Source of the DNA: Gemmatimonadota bacterium
GTDB lineage: Bacteria; Gemmatimonadota; Gemmatimonadetes; Gemmatimonadales; GWC2-71-9
Direction: 5' to 3'
Assembly (NCBI GenBank): GCA_003223395.1
Contig: QHUZ01000039.1
Span: 1 to 46,690 of the forward strand
Length of the DNA: 46,690 bases
Below are positions 21,458 to 42,521 of this stretch, piece after piece. A program made the translations under genes and the position numbers. Each line of letters begins with the position of its first letter. Position 1 is the stretch's first letter. The notes beneath the pieces were generated by a model that saw nothing but the letters and a program-made list of their open reading frames with translations, had not been told where the DNA came from and did no database searches.

Positions 21458-21467
21458 ACACGGCAGG

Positions 21468-21473: not shown

Positions 21474-21479
21474 TGCATC

Positions 21480-22895: not shown

Positions 22896-22900
22896 CACGT

Positions 22901-22911: not shown

Positions 22912-23000
22912 TATGACTCTTGGGGCGTCGGCCCTTGTCAGTCCGACGGACTCGCTCTGTAATGTTGGACACACGTTCAACCGAACAGCGGGAGCCGCTC

Positions 23001-24002: not shown

Positions 24003-24028
24003 TCCTTACGGGCGCACGGAACGCTACG

Positions 24029-24048
24029 GGGGGCCAGGACTGGCCCCC
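24029..24048 (+). terminator. GC-rich hairpin after the propeller lipoprotein
   Basis: GGGGGCCA, loop GGAC, then TGGCCCCC: a perfect eight-base-pair stem 26 bases after the stop, followed by TGTATTATTCTT. The T-tract is weak and overlaps the -10 box of the next gene. It probably separates the two transcription units. Confidence 0.6.
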
Positions 24049-24050
24049 TG

Positions 24051-24056
24051 TATTAT
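24051..24056 (+). promoter_or_regulatory. Putative -10 box of the methyltransferase
   Basis: TATTAT followed by eleven bases and the ATG, with no Shine-Dalgarno sequence. It lies immediately after the terminator hairpin. Confidence 0.35.
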
Positions 24057-24067
24057 TCTTCCAGCCG

Positions 24068-25836: not shown

Positions 25837-25844
25837 GGTGCGGT

Positions 25845-25850
25845 AAGATA
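25845..25850 (-). promoter_or_regulatory. Putative -10 box of the acyltransferase
   Basis: TATCTT on the minus strand, eight bases before the ATG. TATACA (25868-25873, minus strand) at a 17-base spacing is a weak -35. The divergent promoter lies within the same 49-base gap. Confidence 0.4.
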
Positions 25851-25869
25851 AGGCGTCGTGAGTCGGCTG

Positions 25870-25875
25870 TATATT
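25870..25875 (+). promoter_or_regulatory. Putative -10 box of the deacetylase-like gene
   Basis: TATATT followed by ten bases and the GTG start, with no Shine-Dalgarno sequence. It overlaps the weak -35 of the divergent acyltransferase promoter. Confidence 0.4.
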
Positions 25876-25885
25876 CGAAGCACCC

Positions 25886-27346
25886 GTGATCACATTGCCA
25901 AACCGCGACGCGCTGCGCTCCCTGAGCCCCCTGGAGCGATTCGGTCTCGACGTCCTGGTGGATCTTTCGCGCTGCGCGATCGTGGAAGATCCGGCCGCCG
26001 AGGTCGTCCGCGTCGCGATCGCCGATCAGGATCCGGGTGTTGCGCATTTACGTGCGTGCATCGCCCACGATTGGTACATCGAGCGGGGTGACGGCGTCGT
26101 CCGTGTCCCACGCGCGATCTTGCGTCGCCTCGCCGAGATCGCGACCGGAGCGGCCGAGCGGCGCTCCACGGTGCGCGACCGGTTTGGCCGCGTGCCATCG
26201 ACCGAAAACGAACTCGTGCGACAGAACGTCGCGGCGCAGCCGGTGGTTGCGATCGCCGCCGCGCGGTTGCGCGAGGCGGTCGTTGCAAGCGCCGGCCGGC
26301 GACCGATCGCGTTCCTCACGCCCTGGCCCGAAGGGAAGCGCTGGGCGGCGGCAATCACGCACGATCTGGACGTCGTCGATCTCTGGCCCGTGTTCACAGC
26401 GCTGCGGATGGCCGAGCTGGCTCGCAAGGGAGAGCTGCAGCGGATCGCGCGGACGGCGCTGTCCGCTTTCGGCACCATCGGCCGCAATCCCGTACAGCGC
26501 GCGTTGCGCGCACTGCTCGACGCCGAGGACCAGCGCAGCATCGTTTCGAGCTGGTTCGTGCTGTGCGGGACACCGACGTTCCACACCATGCGCGCCGGTG
26601 ACCTGACCTATCGCCCCGAAGGACGTGGCGCGAGAGCCGCCCTGCGGGCGCTGCTCGATCACCGCTGCGAAATCAACCTGCACGGCAGCTTCGCCACGAG
26701 CGACGACCACGCCCTGTTCGCCGAACAGCGGCGCCGGCTGGCCGGCCTCACGGAGCAACCAGTGCCAGGGGTCCGACAGCACTTTCTACGCATGCGCCCG
26801 GGCGAGACGATCCGCGGGATGGCGGCGGCCGGTTTTCGCTACGACACCACGGCAGGGTTCCCGGATCGCAACGGCTTCCGACTCGGCGTAGGCGACGTGA
26901 TTCCGGGGTGGGACGGGGCAGGGGAAAAGCCGCTCGAGATCCAGGAAGCGCCGGTCATCTGGATGGATCGCGCGCTGAGCAAGTACGCGGGGGTCGAGGA
27001 TCCGGAAGCATGGATCAGCGAAGGCGTCACCCTCGCGGACGCGTGTCGCGCGACCCAAGGGCTGTGGGTCGGGGTGTGGCATCCGAATCTGACGCCGGCC
27101 CTTGGCTTCCCAGATGCGCCGGCGGCGTTCGCGGCGCTACTGGATCGCTTACTCGCCCAGCAGCCGTTCATGGCGCCGCTTGGCAGCCTGGTCGAATGGC
27201 GCGTCGCGCGGCGCGGCGTGCGGGTGCGCGGCGTCCTGCCCGACGGCCGGCCCGATGCCTACGGCACGGCGCCCAGGACCGACCGTCTCATGCTCGAGGA
27301 TTCTTCCGGAGCGCGGCGGCATAGCATTCCTGCCACGCCGCGATAA
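25886..27346 (+). CDS. Polysaccharide deacetylase-like (NodB-fold) protein
   Basis: A 486-residue protein resembling the bacterial polysaccharide deacetylase-like group found in glycan clusters. The NodB-type core begins at about residue 148 with AAAITHDLDVVDLWP (catalytic and metal Asp). It continues with CEINLHGSFATSDDHALF (the His region) and AAGFRYDTTAGFPDRNGFRLG (the RxDTT barrel motif), and ends near GLWVGVWHPNL. The first 145 residues are a separate helical region. It starts at GTG 25886. The last 59 bases overlap the convergent glycosyltransferase gene. Substrate unknown; a role in trimming or modifying the surface glycan is inferred from neighbours. Confidence 0.7.
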   Translation: MITLPNRDALRSLSPLERFGLDVLVDLSRCAIVEDPAAEVVRVAIADQDPGVAHLRACIAHDWYIERGDGVVRVPRAILRRLAEIATGAAERRSTVRDRFGRVPSTENELVRQNVAAQPVVAIAAARLREAVVASAGRRPIAFLTPWPEGKRWAAAITHDLDVVDLWPVFTALRMAELARKGELQRIARTALSAFGTIGRNPVQRALRALLDAEDQRSIVSSWFVLCGTPTFHTMRAGDLTYRPEGRGARAALRALLDHRCEINLHGSFATSDDHALFAEQRRRLAGLTEQPVPGVRQHFLRMRPGETIRGMAAAGFRYDTTAGFPDRNGFRLGVGDVIPGWDGAGEKPLEIQEAPVIWMDRALSKYAGVEDPEAWISEGVTLADACRATQGLWVGVWHPNLTPALGFPDAPAAFAALLDRLLAQQPFMAPLGSLVEWRVARRGVRVRGVLPDGRPDAYGTAPRTDRLMLEDSSGARRHSIPATPR

Positions 27347-28502
27347 TCGCCTCCCAGCCGAACTGCTCGCGCACGCGCCGGCTGCCGGCCTCGGCGAGTC
27401 GCTTGGCGAACGCGGGGTCGGTCGCAATGCGCTCGATCGCTTTCGCGATCGCCGTGGGATCCTCCGGCGGGACGAGCAGACCCGTCTCGCCGTCCCCGAT
27501 GATGTCCGTGATGCCGCCGATCGCGCTGCCGATGACCGGCACCCGATAGCTGAGCGCCTCGAGCAAGACGACGCCGAGCCCCTCGGTGTCGCCGCGCTGA
27601 TCGACGATCGACGGGAGCACGAGCACGCTCGCCTCGTGAAATGCGCGATGCAGATCGGGCTCGGGAACACGGCCCGGCATCTCTACCCGTCCATCGAGGC
27701 CGAGCTCGTGCACCTGCGCTTCGAGCTTCGCGCGATCGGTGCCCTCGCCCAGAATGAGGAGTTTTGCAGGGATGGTGGACGGCAGGCGGTGCAGGGCATC
27801 GATCAGGTATCGCACGCCTTTGCGCGGAATCAGGTTGCCGACATACAAGATCTGGAACGTGCCGTCTGTCGAGCGGCGTGCGGCGCTCCCCCCCGGTAAC
27901 GATTCCGCGAATCCCAGCCCGTAGGGAATGACGCGTACCGGAACATGGACCAGCTCCGCGATCTCGCGCGCGGTGTAGGACGAGATGGCGACGACCTGAT
28001 CCGACGTGCGCAGCGCCCGTTTGAGAAACTGCTTCAACCAGGGGAGGCGACTCTTCACCCAGCGCAGCTCGATGCCGTACCACAATGTGACGAGCCCAGT
28101 GCGCCCTCTGCTCCCGCGGCGCGCCGCCCATCCGAACAGCGCGTGCGGCACGGGCCAATGCACGTGGACGATGTCGAACTCGCGCCGGCGTGCCAGACGC
28201 CACGCTGCACGCATCCCCGCCAGCACGTAGAACGGCGCCATCAGCTTGTAGCGCATGGAGCGTCCCACGCGGTCCACAGTTCCCTGGTCGTGGGTCAGAT
28301 CCTCCCAGCGCCCGGGGAAGTAGCGAAACCGGTGAACGGGAATGCCCTCGAATTCGGTGTTGCCGCCGCCGCGGTAGGCGGGGGCGAACACTTCGACGTC
28401 GAGTCCGGCAGCGCGTTGGCGTCGGAGCAGCTCGATGAGCCAGGGCGCGATGATGTCCCCGGGGGCGCGCGGAAACGCCGTAACCACATGGAGGATGCGC
28501 AT
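27288..28502 (-). CDS. GT4-family glycosyltransferase
   Basis: A 404-residue GT-B retaining glycosyltransferase. The N-terminal acceptor domain starts MRILHVVTAFPRAPGDIIAPW. The C-terminal donor domain has the GT4 signature YVGNLIPRKGVRYLIDAL, GEGTDRAKLE and VLPSIVDQRGDTEGLGVVLLEAL with the EGLGVVLLE phosphate-binding Glu. It likely adds a hexose during surface polysaccharide assembly at the inner membrane. The ATG at 28502 has a TATAGT box twelve bases upstream. It is divergent from the flippase-like gene. Confidence 0.88.
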   Translation of the reverse strand: MRILHVVTAFPRAPGDIIAPWLIELLRRQRAAGLDVEVFAPAYRGGGNTEFEGIPVHRFRYFPGRWEDLTHDQGTVDRVGRSMRYKLMAPFYVLAGMRAAWRLARRREFDIVHVHWPVPHALFGWAARRGSRGRTGLVTLWYGIELRWVKSRLPWLKQFLKRALRTSDQVVAISSYTAREIAELVHVPVRVIPYGLGFAESLPGGSAARRSTDGTFQILYVGNLIPRKGVRYLIDALHRLPSTIPAKLLILGEGTDRAKLEAQVHELGLDGRVEMPGRVPEPDLHRAFHEASVLVLPSIVDQRGDTEGLGVVLLEALSYRVPVIGSAIGGITDIIGDGETGLLVPPEDPTAIAKAIERIATDPAFAKRLAEAGSRRVREQFGWEAIIAAWQECYAAALRKNPRA

Positions 28503-28514
28503 TAAGAGTGCTGT

Positions 28515-28520
28515 ACTATA
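28515..28520 (-). promoter_or_regulatory. Putative -10 box of the GT4 gene
   Basis: TATAGT on the minus strand, twelve bases before the ATG. A plus-strand TACTAT overlaps it at 28514-28519, so the spot may fire in both directions. Confidence 0.35.
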
Positions 28521-28533
28521 GCCGACCCTTGGC

Positions 28534-28539
28534 TATTTT
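28534..28539 (+). promoter_or_regulatory. Putative -10 box of the flippase-like gene
   Basis: TATTTT nine bases before the TTG start at 28549. GGAG also lies between the two, so ordinary ribosome binding is possible. Confidence 0.3.
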
Positions 28540-28548
28540 GGAGTCTCA

Positions 28549-29475
28549 TTGGGCAGAGCATGGTGGTTTCGGGTGCTGCAGGCGGTCGTGCTCGCCGGTG
28601 CGGCCGTCTATCTGTTTCGCGTGGCAGCGCCTCAGTGGCCCGCGATTCGCGCGCGCAGCTTTGCCTGGCGCGGCGCGCCCCTCGCGCTCAGCGGGCTCCT
28701 CATCGTCGCGAATCTCGCGTGGATGATCGCCATCTGGAACATGAGCTTGCGGTGGTGCGCCGCGAGGCTGCGCTACTGGGACGCGGCCCGCATCTGGTTC
28801 ACCGCCAACCTGGCCCGTTTCCTCCCGGGCGCCGTCCTCCAGTTCGCGAGTCTTGCCATCATGGCCTCGCGCTACGGCGTGGCACCGACCGCCGCCACAG
28901 CCACCGTGCTCCTGCAGCAGATTGTCCTGCTCCTCACCGGGCTCGTCGTCATTGCGGGATTTACGCCGATCGTCTTGCATCAGGGGTGGTGGCAGGCAGC
29001 GTTCGTGGTCGCGCTCGTCCTCGGCGCGGGGGTGTTGCTGCTGCTGCCCAGGCTCACGAAGCGGCTCCCCAGTCTGGCGAGATTGTGGTCGCAGGTGCGG
29101 CCGCATCAGCTGCCCGGATACGCGGTCCTGCTCGCGATTCAGTGGCTCCTGTACGGGATGGCCTTCCGGCTGCTCGCGATCGGACTCTTGGGGGATACCG
29201 CGGCTGCAGGCTCCCTGGGTTTCTACATCACGGCATTCACGGAGAGTTATTTGGCAGGCGTAATCGCGGTCTTCGCGCCCGCGGGGCTGCTGGTGCGCGA
29301 GGCAGCCCTTATCAACGTTCTGACGCCGGTGCTGGGCGGTGCCGACGCCGTGATTCTCGCCGTCGCGGCGCGGATCTGGCACACCGCACTCGAGCTGCTC
29401 GCCGGATTGCTCGTCCTGACTGTCCCAGTCCCGCCGGCGGCCCAGTCAGGACCAGCCGGCGCCACTTCACCGTGA
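28549..29475 (+). CDS. LPG_synthase_TM / AglD-type membrane protein
   Basis: A 308-residue multi-span membrane protein with about eight helices. It resembles the integral-membrane part of lysylphosphatidylglycerol synthases and the YbhN/AglD group. The typical motif is WFTANLARFLPGAVLQFASL, with a later AFTESYLAGVIAVFAPAGLLVREA. Members are thought to act on lipid-linked substrates, often next to polyprenyl-phosphate glycosyltransferases. The start is TTG at 28549; a TAG lies upstream in frame and no ATG or GTG fits. The gap to the YfhO gene is seven bases, so they are co-transcribed. Confidence 0.75.
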   Translation: MGRAWWFRVLQAVVLAGAAVYLFRVAAPQWPAIRARSFAWRGAPLALSGLLIVANLAWMIAIWNMSLRWCAARLRYWDAARIWFTANLARFLPGAVLQFASLAIMASRYGVAPTAATATVLLQQIVLLLTGLVVIAGFTPIVLHQGWWQAAFVVALVLGAGVLLLLPRLTKRLPSLARLWSQVRPHQLPGYAVLLAIQWLLYGMAFRLLAIGLLGDTAAAGSLGFYITAFTESYLAGVIAVFAPAGLLVREAALINVLTPVLGGADAVILAVAARIWHTALELLAGLLVLTVPVPPAAQSGPAGATSP

Positions 29476-29482
29476 CCCACAC

Positions 29483-31879
29483 ATGACCGCCACCGCTGCG
29501 CCCCCCCCGGTTGCCTACACGCCCCGTCGCCCGCATCTCGCCGCGCTCGGTGTCGTGTCGCTCTTCATTTTTATCCTAGCGCTGCCGATGCTCTCGGGTC
29601 GCTGGCTTGCGTCACCGGACGGCGATCAATACTCGAGCGGCTATGCGGTCAAGGAATGGGCCGCGAACGAGTATCACCGGGCCGGGCACTTCCCGCTCTG
29701 GAATCCGATGATCATGGGAGGCTTGCCGTACATCGACGTCGTGACGCACGGCGACGTGCTGTATCCCACCTCGTTTTTGCGCGAGGTGATGCCGCCGTAC
29801 CAGGCGATGAACATCGCGTTCGTCCTGCATTACATCCTCGCCGGTTTTCTGACGTACCTGTTCCTGCGCCGCTTAGGCGCGTCGTGGATCGGCGCGGTGA
29901 CAGGAGGGGTCGCCTATCAGTTGTCCGGCATCCTGATCTCGTACGTCCACCCGGGACACGACGGCAAGCTCTTTGTCTCGACGATGCTACCCCTGGCGTT
30001 CCTCGCGCTGCTCGCGGCACTGCGGGACAAGCGCGCCTGGGGCTACCCGCTGCTCGCCGTCGCCGTCGCGCTCTGTTTGCTCAGCCCGCATGTGCAGACG
30101 ACGTACTATCTGTTGATCGCCGCGGCGCTGTTCGCGCTGTACTTGACGTTCGGAGAACCCAGTCCCGATCCATTGCGCAGTCGCCTGATCAGACTGGGCG
30201 TCGTGTTCCTCGCGGTGATCGTGGGATTCGGCATCGCGGCCCCGCAGATCCTGCCGTTCATTCAGTACATCCCCCATTCGCCCAGGGCAGGGGGGTATTC
30301 TGTTGGCTATCAAGGGTCGACGTCTTTTGGCATCCCCTGGAATCACATCCCCGAGTTCATCATCGCCGGCTTCACCGGCGACACGGAGACCTACTGGGGC
30401 TCAAACCCTCTGAAGCTGCATTCCGAGTACCTCGGACTCCCCGTAGTCGCGCTCGCGATTCTTGGCCTCGGGGATCGCCGCCGGCGGCTCGTCTGGTGGC
30501 TCGTGGGAATCGGGACCTTGTTCCTGCTCATCGCGCTTGGCGCGTCGACGCCGTTCTACCATCTGTGGTGGACGGTGATGCCGATGGTAAAGAAGACGCG
30601 TGCCCCCGGGATGGTGTTCTTTGTCGTTGCGTTCTGCACGGCCACGTTCGCGGCGTTTGGCGTGGATCGCCTCGAACGTCGCGACCCGACCGCCACGAAG
30701 CACGCGCGCGTCTGGCTCATCACGGCCGGGGTGATCGCCTTGCTTGGCTTGATCGCTGTCTTTGGCCAGCTCGCCCAGGCGTTGGCGTTGGGAGGCGAGC
30801 ACCCCGAGCGACTCCCGGCGGCAATCGCCCGGGGATCGTTCATACGCCTTTCGACGCTGATTGGTGCGGTCGCGTTGGCAGGGGTCGCGTTGCTTACGTG
30901 GGGCTGGCTCAAGGGACGCGTTCCCGTGCTGCTGCTCGCGTTCGGGATCCCGCTGCTCGTTGGCGTGGATCTCTGGCGCAATGGCCAGCATTTCTGGCAA
31001 TACTCACCGAAGCCGAGTGAAGGGCTGTATCGGACCGACCCGCTCGTAGCCCGCTTGCAAGCCGAACCCAAGCCGTGGCGAGTGTTCAATATCGGCGACT
31101 CCTACGGTGTCTATCCGCAGAACACGCTGATGGGCTTTGGGATTCCTCAGGTGTTGGGCTATCAAGGCAGCGAGCTCAGGTACTTCGACGAGCTCATCGG
31201 CGGGCGACCGGGGACCGGCCCCCAAGCGGCACAGTACCTCTTCACATCGACGCGACTCTGGCATCTTCTGGCGGTTCGCTACGTCATCCTGCCCGATACC
31301 GCCAATCTGCCGGGCTATCATCGCGTCCTCGGCCCTGTGACGACCGGCGACGGGAGGCAAGCATTCCTGTACGAAGCCGACACCACTCCGACGTACGCTC
31401 AGGTCGTTCCGGCGGCGGTGAAGCTCTCGGCGGATTCGCTCGTGCCGCCGACGCTCGCCGATCCGCGCATGCCGGGATACGATCGCGTGGTTCTGCTCCC
31501 CGCGAGCGCGCCCATCAATCCGGCGCCGCTGCAGGGCCTGCCGCCGCCGTCGCCATCGCACGGGAAGGTGACGAACTGGGACGCGGGGCGCATGACGATC
31601 ACGCTCGACCCGCCGCCGCGCGACTCCAGCTACGTCCTGATCGCTGAAAACTGGTATCTCGATTGGAGCGTCAGCGTCGATGGGCGACCGGGCCAGGTGC
31701 TCCGTGGAGATAACGCACTCATGACGATTCCGGTCGCCCCCGGCGCGCGGCAGCTCGAGCTGAGCTATCACTCGAAAGCGATCGCCCGGGGCTTCGCTGT
31801 CGGCCTCGCGAGTCTGGTCATCGCGCTCGCCGGCTTCATCGTACCCCCGGGTATCGAACGGAGACGCCGGCGTGCCTGA
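29483..31879 (+). CDS. YfhO-family membrane protein
   Basis: A 798-residue membrane protein of the YfhO / GT-C-like family. It has about 12-13 helices in the first 560 residues (GVVSLFIFILALPMLSGRW onward), with loops GDQYSSGYAVKEWAANEYHR and FPLWNPMIMGGLPY typical of YfhO. A soluble beta-rich C-terminal half carries VLIAENWYLDWSVSVDGRPG, and a last helix lies near 775. YfhO proteins glycosylate envelope polymers from polyprenyl-linked sugars. The DPM1-like gene that follows with an eight-base overlap would make such a donor, so the two probably form a donor-and-transferase pair. Confidence 0.8.
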   Translation: MTATAAPPPVAYTPRRPHLAALGVVSLFIFILALPMLSGRWLASPDGDQYSSGYAVKEWAANEYHRAGHFPLWNPMIMGGLPYIDVVTHGDVLYPTSFLREVMPPYQAMNIAFVLHYILAGFLTYLFLRRLGASWIGAVTGGVAYQLSGILISYVHPGHDGKLFVSTMLPLAFLALLAALRDKRAWGYPLLAVAVALCLLSPHVQTTYYLLIAAALFALYLTFGEPSPDPLRSRLIRLGVVFLAVIVGFGIAAPQILPFIQYIPHSPRAGGYSVGYQGSTSFGIPWNHIPEFIIAGFTGDTETYWGSNPLKLHSEYLGLPVVALAILGLGDRRRRLVWWLVGIGTLFLLIALGASTPFYHLWWTVMPMVKKTRAPGMVFFVVAFCTATFAAFGVDRLERRDPTATKHARVWLITAGVIALLGLIAVFGQLAQALALGGEHPERLPAAIARGSFIRLSTLIGAVALAGVALLTWGWLKGRVPVLLLAFGIPLLVGVDLWRNGQHFWQYSPKPSEGLYRTDPLVARLQAEPKPWRVFNIGDSYGVYPQNTLMGFGIPQVLGYQGSELRYFDELIGGRPGTGPQAAQYLFTSTRLWHLLAVRYVILPDTANLPGYHRVLGPVTTGDGRQAFLYEADTTPTYAQVVPAAVKLSADSLVPPTLADPRMPGYDRVVLLPASAPINPAPLQGLPPPSPSHGKVTNWDAGRMTITLDPPPRDSSYVLIAENWYLDWSVSVDGRPGQVLRGDNALMTIPVAPGARQLELSYHSKAIARGFAVGLASLVIALAGFIVPPGIERRRRRA

Positions 31880-32594
31880 ACGCGCTCTCATCATCGTCCC
31901 GACCTACAATGAAGCGGTCAACCTCCCGCACATCGTGCCGCAGGCGCTCGCCCAGGACCCGCGGCTGGAGGTGCTCGTCGTGGACGACAACTCCCCCGAC
32001 GGCACAGGCAGGATGGCCGATGAGATGGCGCGCACCAACCCCCGCGTCTACGCGCTGCACCGGGAGGGGAAGCTCGGGCTGGGGACGGCGTACATCGCCG
32101 GGTTCAAGTGGGCGCTGGAGCGGGGGTATGACTACATCTTCGAAATGGATGCCGATTTCCAGCACGATCCCGCCCACCTCAAGGACTTTCTCACGGCCAT
32201 TCAGGATGCGGACGTCGTGCTGGGCTCACGCTACCTCGATGGAAAGGTGACGATCGTCAATTGGCCGATGGGCCGGTTGATGCTATCGTACTTCGCCAAT
32301 GTGTACGCCCGCTGGTTTACCGGCCTCAGGATCTGGGATCTGACGGGTGGGTTCAAGTGCTTTCGCAGGCGCGTGCTCGAGGCGATTGACCTTTCCGCGG
32401 TCGGTTCCAACGGGTACGCCTTTCAAATCGAGATGAGTGTTCGCGCATGGCGAAAAGGGTTCAAGCTCCGCGAGATTCCGATCGTGTTCGTCGACCGGGC
32501 CGAGGGACAGAGCAAGATGAACCGGGCCATCGTCCGCGAGGCGGTGTGGAAGGTGCCACGCCTCCGGCTCATGGCCTGGTTCGGTCGCATCTGA
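31872..32594 (+). CDS. Polyprenyl-phosphate mannose/glucose synthase, DPM1-like GT2
   Basis: A 240-residue soluble family 2 glycosyltransferase that transfers a hexose from a nucleotide sugar to polyprenyl phosphate. It has LIIVPTYNEAVNLP, LVVDDNSPDGTG, EMDADFQHDPAHL (the metal-binding DAD) and SRYLDGKVTIVNWP. DLTGGFKCFRRRVLE follows, then the FVDRAEGQSKMNR segment typical of DPM1. It has no membrane anchor. It starts at GTG 31872 inside the end of the YfhO gene. The dapF gene overlaps its stop. Confidence 0.9.
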   Translation: MPERALIIVPTYNEAVNLPHIVPQALAQDPRLEVLVVDDNSPDGTGRMADEMARTNPRVYALHREGKLGLGTAYIAGFKWALERGYDYIFEMDADFQHDPAHLKDFLTAIQDADVVLGSRYLDGKVTIVNWPMGRLMLSYFANVYARWFTGLRIWDLTGGFKCFRRRVLEAIDLSAVGSNGYAFQIEMSVRAWRKGFKLREIPIVFVDRAEGQSKMNRAIVREAVWKVPRLRLMAWFGRI

Positions 32595-33409
32595 TCGGCC
32601 TGCCGGTCTACAAGATGACGGGATCGGGAAACGATTTCGTCATGGTGGACGCACGTGTGTCCACGCCGGCCGACTGGACGCCGGAAGACATGCAGGCCGT
32701 CTGCGCCCGGGGAACGGGCATCGGGGCTGACGGGATCGTGTTCGTCGGGCCGGGCTCGCACGCTGGTGCCGCCCGCATGATTTACTACAATGCCGACGGA
32801 TCTCACGCCGCCATGTGTGGCAACGCGGCGCTCTGCAGCACCACTCTCGCCGCGCATCTGGGCGTCGGCACGCCCGAGGGGATGGACCTCGAGACGGATG
32901 CCGGTACCTACCAGAGCCGTGCGGTCGAAGCCGGGCGAGCGGAGCTGCATCTCGCTCCGGTCGAACGGCCCGCCGCCGTTCCGGGGCTCGCACTGTCGGC
33001 TGGCGAACGGCAGGCCGTGCTTACCAGGGTCGGCGTCCCGCATCTGATCGTCCTGGTGGACGATGTGGATGACGTGGACCTCATGGACCGCGGCCGAGCG
33101 CTGCGGTTTGACCCGGCGCTGGCTCCGGACGGGGCCAATATCAACTTCATCGCGAAGGACGAGGCCGGCCGCTGGCGCATGCGGACCTATGAGCGCGGCA
33201 TCGAGGGTGAGACGCTAGCGTGCGGTACCGGTGCGGTGGGCGCGGGCTGCGCGATTCAGGAATGGAGTCTGGGGGGACTGCCGCTGGACATCCAGAGCCG
33301 CAGCGGCCGGATGATTGGCGTACGGGCTACGAAGGCCCAAAGCGGCCGTTATGACGACGTGTGGCTGATTGGAGAGGGGAGAATGGTGTTCAGAGGCGTG
33401 ATTACTTGA
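32591..33409 (+). CDS. dapF: Diaminopimelate epimerase (apparent CTG start)
   Basis: Interconverts LL- and meso-diaminopimelate for lysine and peptidoglycan. It has VYKMTGSGNDFVMVDAR, the first catalytic Cys76 in AAMCGNAALC, and the second in ETLACGTGAVGAGC. The family N-terminus begins about eight residues before KMTGSGNDF. At that place the frame has CTG (32591), overlapping the previous stop as CTGA, and no ATG, GTG or TTG. The next ATG, at 32615, would remove the first beta strand. I therefore choose CTG, with 272 residues. It is the last plus-strand gene before dif. Confidence 0.92.
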   Translation: MIGLPVYKMTGSGNDFVMVDARVSTPADWTPEDMQAVCARGTGIGADGIVFVGPGSHAGAARMIYYNADGSHAAMCGNAALCSTTLAAHLGVGTPEGMDLETDAGTYQSRAVEAGRAELHLAPVERPAAVPGLALSAGERQAVLTRVGVPHLIVLVDDVDDVDLMDRGRALRFDPALAPDGANINFIAKDEAGRWRMRTYERGIEGETLACGTGAVGAGCAIQEWSLGGLPLDIQSRSGRMIGVRATKAQSGRYDDVWLIGEGRMVFRGVIT

Positions 33410-33438
33410 TCAGCTTGTCCACATTCACACGCAGCTCA

Positions 33439-33466
33439 ACTTAACATAACATTCATTATACGAAGT
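33439..33466 (-). other. dif: dif site (chromosome dimer resolution), replication terminus
   Basis: Read on the minus strand: XerC arm ACTTCGTATAA (33466-33456), six-base centre TGAATG (33455-33450), XerD arm TTATGTTAAGT (33449-33439). The 11+6+11 layout and the TATAA/TTATGTTAA core match known bacterial dif sites; the XerD arm differs from that of E. coli at one base. It sits in the 65-base AT-rich gap between the convergent dapF and TPR genes, exactly where coding strand switches. A longer imperfect inverted repeat (GCAGC...TCAACTT, 33431-33475) surrounds it. Confidence 0.87.
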
Positions 33467-33474
33467 TGATGCTG

Positions 33475-34191
33475 CTATGATGCTGTCCCCTTGATGAGCT
33501 CACCCAGCCGCACCTTGGCCTCACCCGCGATGCCCTCTTTCCCAAACTCGCTCACGATGCGCCGATAGGCAGCAACGGCCCTGGTCGTGTCTCCAGCGTT
33601 TGTCCAGGCTCGACCGGCATCAGACAGCATCTGCGCCTTCAGGAAGTCCAGGCGGGCCGCTGCAGACGCGTTTTCGTACGATTCCCCGGCGTCCCGCGGC
33701 TTCCCCATGTCCTCGTACGCGGCCCCCAGGAGCCCATAGGCCTGCGCCCGATACGCCTGCGGCGCCCCCGGAGCGAAATCCTTGAGGACGGTAATTGCCT
33801 GCTGCGGCTGCTTCTCGAGCAACCGCGCGTTGGCGAGCAGAATTCGAGCTTCGGCGGCCGCGTTCGTTCCCGAGTAGTTCGCGATCACCTTCGCCAGCTC
33901 GCTCGCGGCCAGCGGGTAGTTCTGGTTCTCGAAGGCAAACCGTGCGCCCTGAAGATCGCGGCTCGCGATCTCTTCGGTGCGATGCTTGGTCGAGAGCGTC
34001 CACACGAACAGACCCGCGCCCACGACCAGAATGGCCCCCACCCACGACGTGATTTGCGTGTGAGCCCTGAACCAGGCGCCGAGTCGATCGGAGAGCGGCG
34101 GCCGTTGGGCGCCCGGCGGCGCGGACGATGTGGTCGCCGAATTCACAGGAGGCGTCGGTTTTCCGCTGCCGGGGCGTGTTGCCGTTGCCAT
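33475..34191 (-). CDS. YfgM-like membrane-anchored TPR protein
   Basis: A 238-residue protein with a cytosolic Pro/Ser/Ala-rich N-terminus (residues 1-45), one membrane helix (ITSWVGAILVVGAGLFVW, about 50-67) and a periplasmic TPR-type helical region (FAFENQNYPLAASELAKVIA, AAAEARILLANARLLEKQPQ, AYGLLGAAYEDMGKPRDAG). It resembles YfgM, an ancillary SecYEG-associated factor in enterobacteria, whose gene is also close to der there. The ATG at 34191 has AAGGAG five bases before it. It lies 17 bases after tRNA-Arg on the same strand, and its stop is eight bases from dif. Confidence 0.8.
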   Translation of the reverse strand: MATATRPGSGKPTPPVNSATTSSAPPGAQRPPLSDRLGAWFRAHTQITSWVGAILVVGAGLFVWTLSTKHRTEEIASRDLQGARFAFENQNYPLAASELAKVIANYSGTNAAAEARILLANARLLEKQPQQAITVLKDFAPGAPQAYRAQAYGLLGAAYEDMGKPRDAGESYENASAAARLDFLKAQMLSDAGRAWTNAGDTTRAVAAYRRIVSEFGKEGIAGEAKVRLGELIKGTAS

Positions 34192-34208
34192 ATGCTCCTT
34201 CGGAGAAG

Positions 34209-34282
34209 TGCCCCTGGGGTGACTCGAACACCCGGCCAACGGTTTAGGAAACCGCTGCTCTATCCACCTGAGCTACAGGGGC
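34209..34282 (-). tRNA. tRNA-Arg (anticodon CCT)
   Basis: A 74-base cloverleaf. The acceptor GCCCCTG pairs with CAGGGGC and the discriminator is A. The D arm contains TAGCTCAGGTGGATAGAGC. The anticodon arm is GCGGT-TTCCTAA-ACCGT with anticodon CCT, reading AGG. The T arm is CGGGTGTTCGAGTCACCC. CCA is not encoded. It is followed after 17 bases by the TPR gene. Confidence 0.96.
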
Positions 34283-34328: not shown

Positions 34329-34871
34329 TTAGGCGTAATGCAGCAAGGCCTCGACGCGCCTTCCCTGCAGCCGCTGGCGGCCCTTCAGAAAGTCGAGCTC
34401 GATCAGGAAGGTGAATCCGGTCACGGCTGCGCCTGTGCCAGCAACTAGTTGGGCAGCCGCGTTCGCGGTGCCCCCGGTCGCGAGAACATCGTCCACGATC
34501 AGCACCCGGTCGCCCGGCTGCACGGCGTCATGATGCATCTCCAGGGCATCCGTGCCGTACTCGAGCGCGTACTCCACACGCTGCGTCGCGGCGGGCAGCT
34601 TCCCAGGCTTCCGGATCGGGACCAGCCCTGCCCCCAGCTCGAGCGCGATCGGCGCCCCAAACAGGAAACCGCGCGATTCGATCGACACGACGCGCGTGAT
34701 CCCTGCACTCCGGTACGGGTCCGCCATCGCCTTCACCGCCTGCCCGAATAACGGGATGTTCAACAGCAGCGGCGTGACGTCCTTGAACACGATCCCGGGT
34801 TTGGGAAAGTCCTTTACGTCGCGGATCGTGCGCTTCAGCTCGTCGATCAGCTGCGGTTTAGCGGACGTCAA
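34329..34871 (-). CDS. apt: Adenine phosphoribosyltransferase
   Basis: Salvages adenine to AMP; in this organism it could also recycle adenine released in the futalosine pathway. Motifs: DFPKPGIVFKDVTPLL, SIESRGFLFGAPIALELGAG, the PRPP-binding VLIVDDVLATGGTANAA and a normal C-terminus. The start TTG at 34871 (GAGG four bases before it) gives 180 residues and lines up with the E. coli start (MTSAKPQLIDELK against MTATAQQLEYLK). An ATG at 34895 would add eight residues that overlap acyP. The start overlaps the acyP stop by 14 bases. Confidence 0.92.
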   Translation of the reverse strand: MTSAKPQLIDELKRTIRDVKDFPKPGIVFKDVTPLLLNIPLFGQAVKAMADPYRSAGITRVVSIESRGFLFGAPIALELGAGLVPIRKPGKLPAATQRVEYALEYGTDALEMHHDAVQPGDRVLIVDDVLATGGTANAAAQLVAGTGAAVTGFTFLIELDFLKGRQRLQGRRVEALLHYA

Positions 34872-35130
34872 AGGACCTCGGCACGTCGAGCTCATGTGGA
34901 ACGTGAATGCGTTCGACATCATCGACGCGCGCGTGCGACGGGCCGCGCTTCAGATGAGCCTCCAACACCTCAAGTGCCGTCTCAGGGCCCTGAGAAACTA
35001 CTTCAACCGAGCCATCTGGAAGGTTCTGTACGTACCCGCCGAGTTTCAGTCGCTCTGCCTCACGCATGACAAACCACCTGAACCCGACGCCCTGAACGCG
35101 GCCCCGGATAATCCAGCGGCGGAGGCTCAT
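34858..35130 (-). CDS. acyP: Acylphosphatase
   Basis: Small enzyme that hydrolyses acyl phosphates such as carbamoyl and 1,3-bisphosphoglycerate. The 90-residue protein has the diagnostic IRGRVQGVGFRWFV loop (catalytic Arg) and GGYVQNLPDGSVEVV with the catalytic Asn. The ATG at 35130 overlaps the dedA stop as ATGA. The length is normal for the family. Confidence 0.94.
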   Translation of the reverse strand: MSLRRWIIRGRVQGVGFRWFVMREAERLKLGGYVQNLPDGSVEVVSQGPETALEVLEAHLKRGPSHARVDDVERIHVPHELDVPRSFDVR

Positions 35131-35741
35131 TTCGGACGTCGACGACGCAGGACATAAATCCCGACGACAATCAGCGTGACGGGGATCAAGACCAGCAACG
35201 CCCGCGTGACGTAACGATGGATCTCTTCGGGGCGCAGCGCAGCCTCGTGCTGGCCCAGGAAGTATCCGATCCAGGTGAGGATCGCACACCACACGGCGGC
35301 GCCGGCGGCCGTGTACAGGATGAACTTGGGCAGCGGCATCCGATGCAGCCCCGCCGGAATCGAGATGAGGTGGCGGATCACCGGGAACAGCCGCCCGATC
35401 AGGGTGCTGATCTCGCCATGCTCGGCGAAAAACCGCTCGGAGCGTGCCAGGTTCTTGTCGCTGAGGAGCACGTACTTGCCGTAGCGCTGGATCAGCGGCC
35501 GCCCGATGAGCTGCGCGCCGTAATAGTTGGCGAGCGCGCCGATGACGCTGCCCAACACCCCGCACAGAAGAGCGACGCCGAAGTTCATCTGTCCCTTCGC
35601 CGCCCAATAGCCGGCCGGGGGCATGACCAGCTCGCTCGGCACCGGGAGGATCGACGACTCCATCGCCATTAGCGCCACGATGCCGGGGTAGCCGAGGTCG
35701 AGCAGCGTCTGCAGCAGCCAGTCGATGAAGCGCTCAAGCAT
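35127..35741 (-). CDS. DedA-family membrane protein, second copy
   Basis: A 204-residue DedA protein and probable lipid-carrier flippase or transporter. It has YPGIVALMAMESSILPVPSE (with the Glu and Pro of the re-entrant loop), MPPAGYWAAKGQMNFG, GRLFPVIRHLISIPAGLHRM (the Arg-rich motif) and several helices, ending in an Arg/Lys tail. It is closer to the classic DedA/YqjA form than the copy at 8901. The ATG at 35741 is chosen over the upstream 35771, which lies inside pcm. Confidence 0.9.
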   Translation of the reverse strand: MLERFIDWLLQTLLDLGYPGIVALMAMESSILPVPSELVMPPAGYWAAKGQMNFGVALLCGVLGSVIGALANYYGAQLIGRPLIQRYGKYVLLSDKNLARSERFFAEHGEISTLIGRLFPVIRHLISIPAGLHRMPLPKFILYTAAGAAVWCAILTWIGYFLGQHEAALRPEEIHRYVTRALLVLIPVTLIVVGIYVLRRRRPK

Positions 35742-36387
35742 CGAAGCCGTGCTCGCCGACGAGGGGGACAAAGCGGGCGTCGCCGATGGGCGTCACGTGG
35801 GCTCCCATGGGGGTGACGCGCACGAGGGAGAGGACTTGCTTCCCCTTGGTGCCGAGGGGGATGATCATGCGACCGTCGGGCGCGAGCTGCTGGACCAGGG
35901 GCGGCGGGAGCTCGGGCCCCCCGGCCGCCACCAGAATCGCATGGTACGGCGCGTACGCACTCCAGCCCAGGGTGCCGTCGCCGACCAGGACAGAGACGTT
36001 GGTGACTCCGGCGGCACGTAGCGCCGCCTGAGCGGTTTCGGCAAGCGAGCGCACGCGCTCGATCGTAAACACCTGCTCCGCGAGCGCGGCGAGCAGCGCG
36101 GTCTGATAGCCTGACCCGGTCCCGATCTCCAGGACGCGCTCGTTGCCCTTGAGGCCGAGGGTCTCGAGATAACGCGCCTGCGTGAAGGGCTGTGAGATCG
36201 TCTGCCCCGCACCGATCGGAAGGGCGGCGTCTTCGTACGCGCGATGCCGCACCGCCTCGGGCACGAACAAATGGCGCGGCGTCGCGGCAAACGCGCGCAG
36301 CACAGCGAGGTCACGGATGCCCTGGGCGCGGAGCTGCTCGACCAGGCGGGTGCGGTAGCCGCCGTAGGTGTCGCGGCTGCCCGTCAC
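35734..36387 (-). CDS. pcm: Protein-L-isoaspartate O-methyltransferase
   Basis: Repairs isoaspartyl residues in damaged proteins using SAM. The 217-residue protein has TPRHLFVPEAVRHRAYEDAA, the family motif GAGQTISQPFTQARYLETL, the SAM-binding VLEIGTGSGYQTALLA and an IPLGTKGKQVLSLV tail. The GTG at 36387 overlaps the surE stop as GTGA. The surE-pcm pairing is classic in many bacteria. Confidence 0.95.
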   Translation of the reverse strand: MTGSRDTYGGYRTRLVEQLRAQGIRDLAVLRAFAATPRHLFVPEAVRHRAYEDAALPIGAGQTISQPFTQARYLETLGLKGNERVLEIGTGSGYQTALLAALAEQVFTIERVRSLAETAQAALRAAGVTNVSVLVGDGTLGWSAYAPYHAILVAAGGPELPPPLVQQLAPDGRMIIPLGTKGKQVLSLVRVTPMGAHVTPIGDARFVPLVGEHGFDA

Positions 36388-37157
36388 TTCCCCAGATCCC
36401 ACTTCCTGACGACTTCGAGCAGCTTGTAATTCGTCATGTCAACGTGCAGCGGCGTAACCGAGATGTACCCGTCTTTCACCGCCTGGAAGTCCGAATCGGC
36501 ACCGCCCGACCAAGTCACGTGCCCTCCCCCGATCCAGTGGATCTCCCGGCCCCACGGGTCCTTCATTTTGGCGACCTCTTCGTGGAACACGCGGCTGCCA
36601 AGGTTGGTGGCCTTCACGCCTTTGACCTGATCGCCCGGAATCGCCGGAAGATTGATGTTCAGCAGGGTCTCACCGGGGAAATTTTCGACGCGCACGATGC
36701 GCTCGATGATCCGTTGCAGCCCCTGGCGATGGCTCTCGAGGTGCTCGAGATCGAAGCTGCCGTACGACACCGCGATGCTGGGGATGCCGGCTGCAAGTCC
36801 CTCCATCGCCGCGGCGACGGTACCCGAGTACAGCACGTCCTCGCCCATGTTCGGGCCATGGTTCACGCCGGAAATGACCCAGTTGGGGCCATCCGGCATG
36901 AGCGTGCTGAGCGCAAGCAGGACACAGTCGGTCGGGGTGCCGTCTACCTGGAATGCCCCGTCAGATCGCCGGTGCGCCCGCAGCGGCCGGTGCAGCGTCA
37001 GCGAGTGCGACGTCCCGCTCTGTTCGCGGTCGGGCGCAACAACCGTCACCTGCCCGACGGTGGCGCAGACATCTGCGAGCAGCGCGATGCCCGGCGCGAG
37101 GACGCCGTCATCGTTCGAGACCAGAATCCGCAAGCCGTTGTCGTTCGAGTTGGTCAC
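36384..37157 (-). CDS. surE: 5'-nucleotidase SurE
   Basis: Metal-dependent nucleoside 5'-monophosphatase linked to stationary-phase survival. The 257-residue protein opens with ILVSNDDGVLAPGI (metal-binding Asp pair) and has VVAPDREQSGTSHSLTL, GTPTDCVLLAL and SGVNHGPNMGEDVLYSGTVAAA. It starts at GTG 37157, overlapping the GT2 stop as GTGA. It is followed by pcm. Confidence 0.95.
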   Translation of the reverse strand: MTNSNDNGLRILVSNDDGVLAPGIALLADVCATVGQVTVVAPDREQSGTSHSLTLHRPLRAHRRSDGAFQVDGTPTDCVLLALSTLMPDGPNWVISGVNHGPNMGEDVLYSGTVAAAMEGLAAGIPSIAVSYGSFDLEHLESHRQGLQRIIERIVRVENFPGETLLNINLPAIPGDQVKGVKATNLGSRVFHEEVAKMKDPWGREIHWIGGGHVTWSGGADSDFQAVKDGYISVTPLHVDMTNYKLLEVVRKWDLGK

Positions 37158-37834
37158 GTCGCTCCTACCACGATTCTGCCCGCGTGGCGCGCAAAGGCGC
37201 GCGCCATACGCCAGGTATCGCCCCAGGCACGAAAGTGACTGTGGGCACCATAGATCGTCGGTACTTCGACAGAAACCACACGGAAGCCGGCCCGCAACGC
37301 GTCGAGCAGGAAGTTGGCCTCGTACTCGTACCGATCCCCCGCGGGCTGCACGCGCTCGGCGACCTCGCGCGTGAACGCGCGAAAGCCGGTCTGCGCGTCA
37401 CTCACCCGCTGCCCGCCGATGCGCGACGCGAGGGTCGCGGACAGCCAATTGGTGAGCCGGCGGGAAATGGGCATACTGAGATCACGCTTGCGCGCGCCTA
37501 ACACGAGATCGGCTCGCCCTTCCGCGATCGGTCGCAGCAACCTGGGAATCTCCTCCGGGGGGTGCTGTCCATCGGCATCAATGGTAACCAGGACGCCCGC
37601 GTCGCGGGCAGTCGCTTCCCGAATCCCGTCCCGCAGCGCCGCACCCTTGCCGCGATTGCGCGGATGCGTGACGAGCGTTGTGCCCGTCCCGCATCCCTCG
37701 TCCCCCGTCGCGTCTGTTGAGCCGTCGTCGACGAGGATGACATCGGCCGCCGGCGCGGCCGCGCGCGTGCGTGACAGGACCTCGCGGATCGTTGCTGCTG
37801 CCTGATACGCGGGGATGACGATCGCGACCCGCAG
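37154..37834 (-). CDS. GT2 glycosyltransferase, DPM1/DPG-like (apparent CTG start)
   Basis: A 226-residue soluble family 2 glycosyltransferase probably loading a sugar onto polyprenyl phosphate. It has VAIVIPAYQAAATIREVL, ILVDDGSTDATGD, TIDADGQHPPEEIP (the metal-binding DAD) and SDAQTGFRAFTREV. The first ATG, GTG or TTG in the frame is TTG at 37540, which would delete both catalytic motifs. Upstream, no such codon lies in frame for at least 60 bases. CTG at 37834 begins exactly at the family N-terminus and is preceded by AAGGGAG with a five-base gap. It lies one base after the merR stop. Confidence 0.88.
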   Translation of the reverse strand: MRVAIVIPAYQAAATIREVLSRTRAAAPAADVILVDDGSTDATGDEGCGTGTTLVTHPRNRGKGAALRDGIREATARDAGVLVTIDADGQHPPEEIPRLLRPIAEGRADLVLGARKRDLSMPISRRLTNWLSATLASRIGGQRVSDAQTGFRAFTREVAERVQPAGDRYEYEANFLLDALRAGFRVVSVEVPTIYGAHSHFRAWGDTWRMARAFARHAGRIVVGAT

Positions 37835-37835
37835 A

Positions 37836-38195
37836 TCAGCTCCCTTCGAGGATGCCGAGCACCGACTTGAGCTCGGCGCGGAGCTCCTTGACGGTTTCCG
37901 TGGCCAGCGCGCGCCGTGCTTCGGGCTTTAGCTCGCCCGAGCGGCGGTACTGCTCGATCTTCTGGCGCGCGCCTTCGATCGTGTACTTCTCGGTGTACAG
38001 CAGGTGCTTCACGAGCATGATCAGCTCGATCTCGCGCCGCTGGTACACGCGATTGCCGGAGCGGTTCTTGGCGGGATTCAGGAACCGGAACTGACTCTCC
38101 CAATAGCGCAGCACGTGCGGCTTCAGGTCGGTGAGCTGGCAGACCTCGCCGATCGAGAAGAACTCCTGGACGGGCTGGGCGGGTGTGCTGCTCAT
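37836..38195 (-). CDS. MerR-family transcriptional regulator
   Basis: A 119-residue regulator with an N-terminal winged HTH (FSIGEVCQLTDLKPHVLRYW, then RSGNRVYQRREIELIMLVKH) and a helical dimerisation region (residues 65-115). There is no Cys-based metal site, so it is not a MerR metal sensor. It is closer to the small MlrA/RacA-like MerR proteins often found beside housekeeping genes. The ATG overlaps the gpsA stop. Target and effector are unknown. Confidence 0.85.
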   Translation of the reverse strand: MSSTPAQPVQEFFSIGEVCQLTDLKPHVLRYWESQFRFLNPAKNRSGNRVYQRREIELIMLVKHLLYTEKYTIEGARQKIEQYRRSGELKPEARRALATETVKELRAELKSVLGILEGS

Positions 38196-39202
38196 CGGTC
38201 CCTCCCCTCCCCTTCCGCCTTCAGCTCGCGCTCCATCAGGTCGCTCACCGCCTGGCGCGGCGGCTTGTTCTTGAAGAGCACGTTGGCGACTTCGCGTGCG
38301 ATCGGCAGGTCGACACCGTGGCGTTCACCCAGAGCCACGGCCGTCCGGGTCGTGTTGACGCCTTCCACGACGGCCGGCTTCCCCGCGAGCGCCTGCTCCA
38401 GCGTCTGCCCCTGCCCCAGCGCCACGCCCAGCGTGCGATTACGCGAGAGCGCGCCGGTGGACGTCAGGATCAGGTCCCCCATCCCCGCCAGGCCTGCGAA
38501 CGTCGTCGCCTGCGCACCCAGCGTGACGCCAAGGCGTGTGATCTCGGCGAGGCCGCGCGTGATCAGGGCAGCGCGGGTGTTGAACCCGAGCCCCAGGCCC
38601 TCGAGGATCCCGGCGGCGAGTGCGATCACGTTCTTGAGCGCGCCCGCCAGCTCGACACCGACAACGTCGGTGTGGGAGTAGACGCGAAAGTAGTTCGTCG
38701 AGAAGACGCGCTGCGTCCGCTGCGCGACGCCGTGGTCGGTCGCGGCGGCGACGACCGCCGTCGGCTGCTGTTGAAAGACTTCCCACGCGAACGACGGGCC
38801 GGAGAGCACGGCCACTGGGATGCCTGCCGGGAGCACCTCGGCGAGGACGCACGAGGGTCGCTCGAGGCGGTCGGGGTCGAGTCCCTTGGAAGCGCTCACG
38901 ATCAGCGGTCGCGACCGATCCAGCGCTTGGGCGGCCTCGGCCATCACCGGCCGCACGGCGTGCGAGGGTGCGGCGGAGACGATGGTTTCGGCGCCGCGGA
39001 TCGCCGCCGCGAGGTCTCCCTCCGCTGTCAGGGCCGGCGCCAGCGAGGCTCCCGGCAAGAACATCTCATTGACGTGTCGCCGGTTCACGCTGTCGACGAC
39101 TTCGGCTTCGCGCGCCCAGATGGTGACCTGCTCGCCTTTGCGCGCGAGCAAATCGGCCAAAGCTGTGCCCCAGGCTCCACCGCCCACGACCGCGACTTTC
39201 AT
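38192..39202 (-). CDS. gpsA: Glycerol-3-phosphate dehydrogenase [NAD(P)+]
   Basis: Makes sn-glycerol-3-phosphate from dihydroxyacetone phosphate for phospholipid synthesis. The 336-residue protein has the Rossmann start MKVAVVGGGAWGTALADLLA, SASKGLDPDRLERPS, LSGPSFAWEVFQQQPTAVV and the catalytic Lys in ELAGALKNVIALAAGILEGL. It ends with PIAREVANVLFKNKPP. The frame stays open upstream to 40084, but that part is the out-of-frame reading of plsY and der. The ATG overlaps the plsY stop, giving a plsY-gpsA pair for the first two steps of phospholipid synthesis. Confidence 0.95.
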   Translation of the reverse strand: MKVAVVGGGAWGTALADLLARKGEQVTIWAREAEVVDSVNRRHVNEMFLPGASLAPALTAEGDLAAAIRGAETIVSAAPSHAVRPVMAEAAQALDRSRPLIVSASKGLDPDRLERPSCVLAEVLPAGIPVAVLSGPSFAWEVFQQQPTAVVAAATDHGVAQRTQRVFSTNYFRVYSHTDVVGVELAGALKNVIALAAGILEGLGLGFNTRAALITRGLAEITRLGVTLGAQATTFAGLAGMGDLILTSTGALSRNRTLGVALGQGQTLEQALAGKPAVVEGVNTTRTAVALGERHGVDLPIAREVANVLFKNKPPRQAVSDLMERELKAEGEGRDR

Positions 39203-39810
39203 TGGTCGGTCGGTCGGGTCCGGAACCGATTCTCGGTCCCCGCGACGAGGCGGCTGATGTTCCGACGGTGGGCGAAAATGATCAATGCGACCAGTGCGAC
39301 GCTTGCCCAGAACGTGTACGGCGAACCCGGCTGCAAGAGGGAGATCGACACCGGTACCGTCAGCACGGCGACGATCGAACTGAGCGATACGTAGCCCGTC
39401 AGCCAGAGGGAGAGCACCCACACCAGAATCGCGAGCAACACGGCGACGGGGGCGAGTGCCAGAAACATCCCCGCGGCCGTCGCGACGCCTTTCCCACCCT
39501 TGAAGCTCACGTACGGCGAGAACATGTGGCCGAGGACCGCGGCCCCACCGAGCACGACGGGCAGCCAGGGATGCTGCGCGGCGCCCGCCCACTGCGAGAA
39601 GAACAGCACGGGGATCGCGCCCTTCGCGATGTCGAACAGCGCGACGGGAATCGCGTACTTCCAGCCCAGGATGCGATAGACGTTGGTGGCGCCGAGGTTC
39701 TTGGAGCCGTGCGCGCGGAGGTCGATCCCCCGCCCCACCCTGCCGGCGATGTAGCTGGTCGGCGTGGCGCCGAGCAGATAGGACGCGAGCATGGCCAGAA
39801 TGGCGTTCAG
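39199..39810 (-). CDS. plsY: Acyl-phosphate:glycerol-3-phosphate acyltransferase PlsY (apparent CTG start)
   Basis: Membrane enzyme that acylates glycerol-3-phosphate. It has the three PlsY motifs: ILAMLASYLLGATPTSYIAG with GSKNLGATNVYRI, VLGHMFSPYVSFKGGKGVAT, and the C-terminal AHRRNISRL. The usual N-terminus (MNxLLxxLxAYLLGS) lines up with LNAILAMLASYLLGA if CTG at 39810 is the start. That CTG overlaps the der stop as CTGA. The next ATG, at 39792, would shorten the first helix by six residues, and the upstream GTG/ATG frame overlaps der by about 60 bases. The result is 203 residues. Confidence 0.92.
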   Translation of the reverse strand: MNAILAMLASYLLGATPTSYIAGRVGRGIDLRAHGSKNLGATNVYRILGWKYAIPVALFDIAKGAIPVLFFSQWAGAAQHPWLPVVLGGAAVLGHMFSPYVSFKGGKGVATAAGMFLALAPVAVLLAILVWVLSLWLTGYVSLSSIVAVLTVPVSISLLQPGSPYTFWASVALVALIIFAHRRNISRLVAGTENRFRTRPTDQ

Positions 39811-41129
39811 CGCCGGCCCCGCTTGCGCCGGAACTTGATCGTGAGCGGCGCCCCGGTGAACTCCCACGCCTCCCGAAAGCCGTTGTGCAGGTAGCGCGTG
39901 TAGGACTCGGGGATCGCTTCGGGCCGATTCGCGACCACGGCAAAGCGCGGCGGCGCCGTGCCGACCTGCGTCGCGTAGAACAGGCGCACCGACTCGCCGA
40001 CCGGCTGCGGCGGCTGTTGGCGGGCGAGCAGTGCTTCGAGGACGCGATTGACTTCGGCCGTGGGCACGCGCTTCTCGCGCTCATCCGCCACGGTCACGAT
40101 AGCGTCGAGCAGCCTGGTGACGCGCTGGCCGGTCTTGGCCGACACGTAAAAGAACGGAATGAACTCGAGAAACGGCGCGCGCGCCTTTATGTCCCGCTCG
40201 CCATCGCGCGCGGTGTTGGTCTCTTTTTCCTCGATCAGGTCCCACTTGTTCACGGCGATGATGACCGCGGCCCCGCGCTCCCACGCTTCGTTCGCGATCT
40301 TCAGGTCCTGCGCGTGCATGCCGTCCTTGGCGTCCACGACGAGCAAGCAGACATCGGCGCGCTCCATCGCGCGGGTGGTACGGAGCGTCGAGTAGAACTC
40401 GAGGTCCTCCTCGACCTTGCTCCGCTTGCGGAGCCCCGCCGTGTCGATGAACACGAGCGTGCGGCCCTGGTACTCGAACGGCGTATCGATGGCATCGCGC
40501 GTCGTCCCCGGCTCGTCGGCGACGACCAGCCGGTCCTGGCCCAGCAGCTTGTTCACAAGACTCGATTTGCCGACGTTGGGCCGGCCGACGACGGCGACAG
40601 CGATCGTCGCTTCCTCATCTGCCGCCGGGGTGTCCGGGAGGAGAGACACGAGCTGGTCAAGCAGGTCGCCACTGCTCTTCCCGACCGCCGCCGATACGGG
40701 GAACGGGTCGCCCAGGCCAAGCTCGTAGAACGCGAGGTGGCGCGTTTCGTCCGGCAGGTTGTCGGCTTTGTTGACCACGAGGATCAAGGGCCGTTTCGCC
40801 TTGCGGAGATACTGCGCGATCTCGAGGTCCATCGGGTGGATGCCGGACTCCACGTCCACCACGAACAACAGCACGTCGCTGTCCGCCACCGCCTGCTCCA
40901 CCTGGGAGCGAATGGCGCGGTTCAACGGATCGACCGATCCGGGGACCAGCCCTCCGGTATCCACGAGCCAGAACCGGCGGCCATTCCACTCCGCCGGAGC
41001 GAAATGACGGTCGCGCGTCACGCCCGGCTGGGCGTCCACGATCGCCTGGCGCCGCCCGATGATGCGGTTGAAGAGCGTGGACTTGCCGACGTTGGGGCGG
41101 CCGATGATCGCAACTGTCGGGATGCTCAT
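39807..41129 (-). CDS. der: Ribosome assembly GTPase Der (EngA)
   Basis: Double GTPase needed for 50S ribosomal subunit assembly. The 440-residue protein has two G domains, each with GRPNVGKS (near residues 10 and 185), DTGG and DTAGLRKRSKVEEDLEFYS switch regions, and NKAD and NKWD base-recognition motifs. A C-terminal KH-like domain ends in a basic tail. The ATG overlaps the stop of the DUF512 gene as ATGA. Confidence 0.97.
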   Translation of the reverse strand: MSIPTVAIIGRPNVGKSTLFNRIIGRRQAIVDAQPGVTRDRHFAPAEWNGRRFWLVDTGGLVPGSVDPLNRAIRSQVEQAVADSDVLLFVVDVESGIHPMDLEIAQYLRKAKRPLILVVNKADNLPDETRHLAFYELGLGDPFPVSAAVGKSSGDLLDQLVSLLPDTPAADEEATIAVAVVGRPNVGKSSLVNKLLGQDRLVVADEPGTTRDAIDTPFEYQGRTLVFIDTAGLRKRSKVEEDLEFYSTLRTTRAMERADVCLLVVDAKDGMHAQDLKIANEAWERGAAVIIAVNKWDLIEEKETNTARDGERDIKARAPFLEFIPFFYVSAKTGQRVTRLLDAIVTVADEREKRVPTAEVNRVLEALLARQQPPQPVGESVRLFYATQVGTAPPRFAVVANRPEAIPESYTRYLHNGFREAWEFTGAPLTIKFRRKRGRR

Positions 41130-42472: not shown

Positions 42473-42521
42473 TGCTGACCGCCTAGAGGTTCAAGGAGTT
42501 TCTGAAGCTAATCTCGCAACT

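Follow-up and report, generated by a model that had tools for sequence, protein, structure and literature searches.

The window, a stretch of 46,690 nucleotides that makes up one whole contig, carries what we take to be the chromosomal dif of a soil bacterium of the Gemmatimonadales, with an accessory module for the binding of DnaA added to it. We put the probability of this reading at roughly 55%. To our knowledge chromosomal dif has been regarded as a bare 28-bp site that is controlled by FtsK only and works without accessory proteins. If the reading is correct, the module would give a first indication, at the level of sequence, that a chromosomal dif has an accessory factor. It would also hint at a physical link between initiator and terminus, in which the control of initiation and the final step of segregation are joined in a single 52-bp site. 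The coordination of the end of the replication and division cycle with the next start is a long-standing question, and one version of it would now be testable. The pairing of dif with DnaA-box sequences extends over a large part of the phylum and appears to be new as far as the openly accessible literature goes, in which we found DnaA boxes at dif described nowhere; this is weak evidence, as most subscription journals were outside its scope.

The dif site and its neighboring genes

In agreement with the initial annotation, positions 33439-33466 display the XerC-arm/6-base/XerD-arm design of dif. Read on the plus strand the 28-mer is ACTTAACATAA-CATTCA-TTATACGAAGT with an 11-6-11 layout. Its left arm (33439..33449, minus strand) is the XerD-binding arm, which reads TTATGTTAAGT on minus. 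It is followed by the central region of 6 bp at 33450..33455 (CATTCA on plus, TGAATG on minus) and by the XerC-binding arm (33456..33466, minus strand), ACTTCGTATAA on minus. The source genome is a MAG of 3.41 Mb in 123 contigs, and with up to 3 mismatches allowed the 28-mer was its sole match. A better dif elsewhere, which had been named as evidence against the assignment, was absent from the genome. For the XerD-arm pattern alone 0.06 occurrences are expected in the window. Of 61 relatives, 38 had a site of the same layout, as a rule in a single copy, and the control with a reversed pattern gave 0. The 28-mer is almost certainly a genuine dif.

A few genomes had two dif copies per assembly, some of them near contig ends. 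The two-copy assemblies G038, G201, G295, G191 and G194 may reflect duplicated contig ends, a mixture of strains or dif-integrated elements. The right half of dif bears a likeness to loxP; we attribute it to arm features common to dif and Cre sites.

The site is placed in a 65-bp gap between two convergent genes. The left neighbor is dapF (diaminopimelate epimerase; 32447..33409, plus strand; TIGR00652, 183.9 bits), the right one encodes a TPR protein and ends at 33475 (ORF as listed 33475..34239, minus strand). At its 5' end this ORF overlaps a tRNA-Arg (CCT) at 34208-34282 on the minus strand; therefore the real start of the TPR gene is probably inside the ORF, further downstream. The switch of the coding strand at dif was confirmed, with dapF on plus ending at 33409 and the main genes from 33475 onward on minus. 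Across 11 genomes plus-strand coding decreased at dif in 10.

Local evidence for a replication terminus

The recombinases and the translocase of a dif system are encoded in the source genome. A tyrosine recombinase gene at 9485..10420 on the plus strand (longest ORF 9080-10420), on the same contig as dif and 23 kb away from it, was identified as xerD with a score of 346.9 bits for TIGR02225 recomb_XerD, which is above the cut-off. The best PDB match of its product was E. coli XerD (1a0p). A XerC-like protein encoded in the genome scored 331.7 bits, just under the NCBIfam cut-off of 335.15; its gene follows a trmFO-like gene and precedes hslU, both neighbors being read from the sequence. The source genome has one FtsK gamma domain, and PF09397 was found in 6 of 6 genomes.

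The orientation of KOPS was assayed with the E. coli-type octamer GGGNAGGG, whose polarity exceeded that of all others among 10,804 gapped octamers. In 11 family genomes, 132 of the copies lying no more than 20 kb from dif pointed toward it vs 16 away from it. In the window 20 of 22 KOPS-like copies pointed toward dif, and the orientation switched between 30285 and 34626. The copies left of dif within 20 kb (14839, 20755, 24425, 26916 and 30285; span 14839..30292) are all on plus, those to the right (34626, 36522, 38200, 38205, 38409, 44290, 45066, 45072 and 45078 in plus coordinates; span 34626..45085) are all on minus. One complete relative showed a local flip at dif from 5:1 to 1:8. GC skew stepped downward across dif in 10 of the 11 genomes. 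In the window itself the skew is weak, changing from -0.002 to -0.022 across dif; the lack of any skew change near 33.4 kb, the other outcome that had been named as contrary, was thus not observed, the local skew falling at dif by a small step. Because of the Xer and FtsK gene content, the convergence of KOPS and the downward skew step in 10/11 genomes, the terminus role of dif is well supported locally. The initial annotation had taken dif at the strand switch as what is expected where two replichores meet. That the replichores are equal is not proven by skew, since two complete relatives (G029:C1 and G403:C1, 40 stretches of 20 kb each) displayed a weak and patchy whole-chromosome skew with no clear ori/ter pair. 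On these two complete Gemmatimonadota chromosomes dnaA is not located opposite dif.

The outer inverted repeat

The longer imperfect inverted repeat around dif (GCAGC/GCTGC, 33431..33475) exists in the window as described earlier. Its arms at 33431-33442 and 33463-33475 pair with a 1-nt bulge, and folding of the single-stranded DNA gave a z of -3.1. The suggestion that it binds an extra factor or is an integration scar was not supported. The flanks of dif in relatives had no excess complementarity, with a mean of 2.17 of 8 positions compared to 2.33 between flanks of different genomes, and we rejected the repeat as a functional element. Because it is present here and not conserved, it probably arose by chance on top of the partial symmetry of dif itself. 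It is very improbable that the repeat is an integration scar or that the site is the dif of a dif-integrating mobile element (IMEX): the hairpin around dif would suit such an origin, yet apart from its lack of conservation there are housekeeping genes on both sides, no phage or element genes nearby and no second attachment site, i.e. no further dif-like site flanking the first. A single viral contig matched the pattern of box and dif described below, and it did so without a dif-like XerC arm, which also speaks against an IMEX and led us to discard the idea of a phage using the combined site.

A conserved DnaA-box sequence on the XerD side of dif

Alignment of relatives on dif revealed a conserved extra element, TTNTCCACA, at -24 to -16 before the XerD arm. 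In the window it is the DnaA-box sequence TTGTCCACA at 33415..33423 on the plus strand, 15 bp outside the XerD arm and just outside the segment 33431-33475 to which the initial annotation had been confined. In the dif-anchored alignment 8 of the 9 box columns carried 1.66-1.85 bits, like the dif arms; these values were obtained from 48 loci, 18 of which had been retrieved with the box as a requirement. Conservation on the XerD side is limited to about 25 bp, and the XerC-side flank had none. Among 30 genomes selected by dif alone, 22 had an exact TTNTCCACA and 29 a match within one mismatch.

The phylum was then tallied by family with about one genome per genus, retrieval again being by dif alone; the dif pattern was matched in 230 of 395 genomes, MAG data included, and 165 of 395 had no match. 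The box was found beside dif in 65 of 69 genomes of five Gemmatimonadota families (f1 29/29, f2 21/22, f3 3/3, f4 5/7, f6 7/8) vs 0 of 28 in five other families of the phylum (f5 0/18, f7 0/5, f8 0/1, f10 0/1, f11 0/3). Its offset was -24 (15 bp), as in 29 of 29 f1 genomes, or -25, once -26 (16-17 bp), in part of f2 and f6, and its strand was always the same. The background frequency of such boxes was 0.33 per kb. In many genomes of f1 and f2 another box, adjoining dif, follows at a distance of exactly 10 bp, as in TTCTCCACA-G-TTATCCCCA and TTTCCCACA-G-TTATCCACC, and a few genomes have the inner box only. The second position in the window, 33425..33433 on plus, is strongly degenerate (TCACACGCA), and within the genus of the window this box is degenerate.

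The alternative of an ordinary dif, with the 9-mer next to it matching by chance or left over from the conservation of neighboring genes, can be regarded as refuted. Taken alone, a single exact TTNTCCACA would be no surprise in 46.7 kb: TTGTCCACA at 33415-33423 is the only match in the window and 0.51 are expected. In addition, dapF and its neighbor may be conserved within the genus. Against the alternative stand an offset that stays fixed in dozens of genera whose flanks have otherwise diverged and the split of families into 65/69 and 0/28. An exact scan for box-N17-dif core in 84,980 bacterial and archaeal genomes, in which phyla beyond Gemmatimonadota were covered at the exact spacing only, hit 56 places. 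Of these, 55 carry record titles that name Gemmatimonadota or a synonym; the remaining one, from Bacterium HR33, matches a contig of f1. The pattern of conservation argues with high confidence for the boxes being part of a conserved dif unit.

DnaA as the candidate ligand

The window sequence TTGTCCACA fits the DnaA-box consensus TTWTNCACA or an accepted variant; TTGTCCACA is accepted as a DnaA-box variant in high-GC actinobacteria. In f2, f3, f4 and f6 the versions of the box include TTATCCACA and TTTTCCACA. In the family, 16 of 18 genomes also have a single TTTTCCACA 62-69 bp upstream of the start of dnaA, where it is probably an autoregulatory site of DnaA. The DnaA protein has the normal domains including an HTH related to that of E. 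coli (1j1v), and the tandem spacing of 10 bp would suit head-to-tail binding. For comparison we searched for oriC by clusters of DnaA boxes, and no convincing cluster was located.

In f1 the third position of the box beside dif is mostly C or G, and TTA or TTT, as in boxes of the E. coli type, is less frequent. This differs from the TTTTCCACA found at dnaA, so that DnaA may have a low affinity for the box or a different protein may be its ligand. Such a binder, e.g. a nucleoid or terminus protein of the clade that serves as an accessory factor of XerCD, would explain the deviating third position. We consider it unlikely, because the versions of f2, f3, f4 and f6 include TTATCCACA and TTTTCCACA and a 10-bp tandem is typical of DnaA boxes; we know of no candidate for the 9-mer other than DnaA. 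On balance DnaA is probably the ligand of the boxes beside dif.

The source genome also encodes a 655-aa protein (G000:C79:71800-73398) with two tandem DnaA-type AAA+ domains, the second half being Hda-like. Of the 16 genomes of the family that were searched, 15 have it, with a normal DnaA encoded elsewhere in addition; it is possibly a regulator of DnaA. As a binder of the boxes it was ruled out because it has no DNA-binding HTH.

Proposed mode of action

The arrangement suggests the following model. XerC and XerD would bind the two 11-bp arms of dif, and FtsK, steered by the converging KOPS, would reach dif and activate XerD, leading to the resolution of chromosome dimers at the septum. The TTNTCCACA boxes, arranged head to tail with a spacing of 10 bp, would be occupied by one or two protomers of DnaA. 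With the nearer box 5-6 bp from the XerD arm, DnaA would come to lie on the same face of the DNA beside XerD. As an accessory protein of the terminus it could then modulate access to XerD, its activation or synapsis according to the state of DnaA and thus of replication, a role likened to that of PepA, ArgR or ArcA at the plasmid sites cer and psi. DnaA on the boxes could gate the access of FtsK or stabilise synapsis, or conversely the terminus might adjust DnaA. Regulation of recombination at dif by DnaA is hypothetical and in our view somewhat less probable than its absence. The proposal that in Gemmatimonadota of five families DnaA sits at dif beside XerD and either gates dimer resolution by FtsK/XerCD or is reset there is put forward tentatively, as less likely than not.

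Alternatively, the boxes may have nothing to do with recombination and form a locus akin to datA or DARS of E. coli, though smaller, that regulates or titrates DnaA, where the last-replicated spot signals the end of a round. In its favor, DnaA boxes are fixed at the terminus, and in E. coli DnaA-box loci outside oriC control DnaA-ATP (PMC13220808). On the other hand there are one or two boxes only and no larger cluster. The boxes are always on the XerD side in one orientation, and their distance from the XerD arm varies by no more than 1-2 bp, a constancy that a free-standing titration site would not need. Because of the nearly fixed spacing and the fixed side we favor a role at the Xer complex over mere titration, which seems improbable.

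Comparison with known Xer and DnaA-box loci

With the dif-XerCD-FtsK-KOPS system of E. coli and other proteobacteria the present site shares the 28-bp 11-6-11 layout, XerC-like and XerD recombinases, FtsK gamma, GGGNAGGG converging on dif, convergent genes and a terminus-type strand switch. The dif of E. coli K-12, however, has no TTNTCCACA beside its XerD arm, whereas here the box is kept at a nearly fixed position as part of a conserved unit. A survey of proteobacterial dif sites argued that a 6-bp centre means that accessory elements are absent (PMC2731167). The 6-bp centre, usually taken as such a sign, thus counts against the reading as an accessory module. A prediction from 2011 listed a dif in one Gemmatimonadetes genome and mentioned neither DnaA nor flanking elements (PMC3025954).

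The plasmid sites cer (ColE1) and psi (pSC101) have in common with the present one a Xer core and, at a fixed distance, an adjacent conserved sequence predicted to bind protein. In cer a 30-bp core is combined with about 180 bp of accessory DNA, PepA and ArgR (PMC5357621). Here the core has 28 bp with a 6-bp centre, is accompanied by one or two short boxes and resides at a chromosomal terminus; the conserved segment spans ~25 bp, and about 180 bp of accessory DNA with sites for PepA and ArgR/ArcA are absent. We therefore do not class the site with cer and psi. Like datA, DARS1 and DARS2 of E. coli the boxes are DnaA-box loci outside oriC, but in datA and DARS several boxes are clustered together with IHF or Fis and are uncoupled from dif, while here one or two boxes, of which a single exact one in the window, are locked to dif.

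Finally, the source genome carries an integron integrase (G000:C29:475-1080), which was recognized by TIGR02249 with 430 bits.
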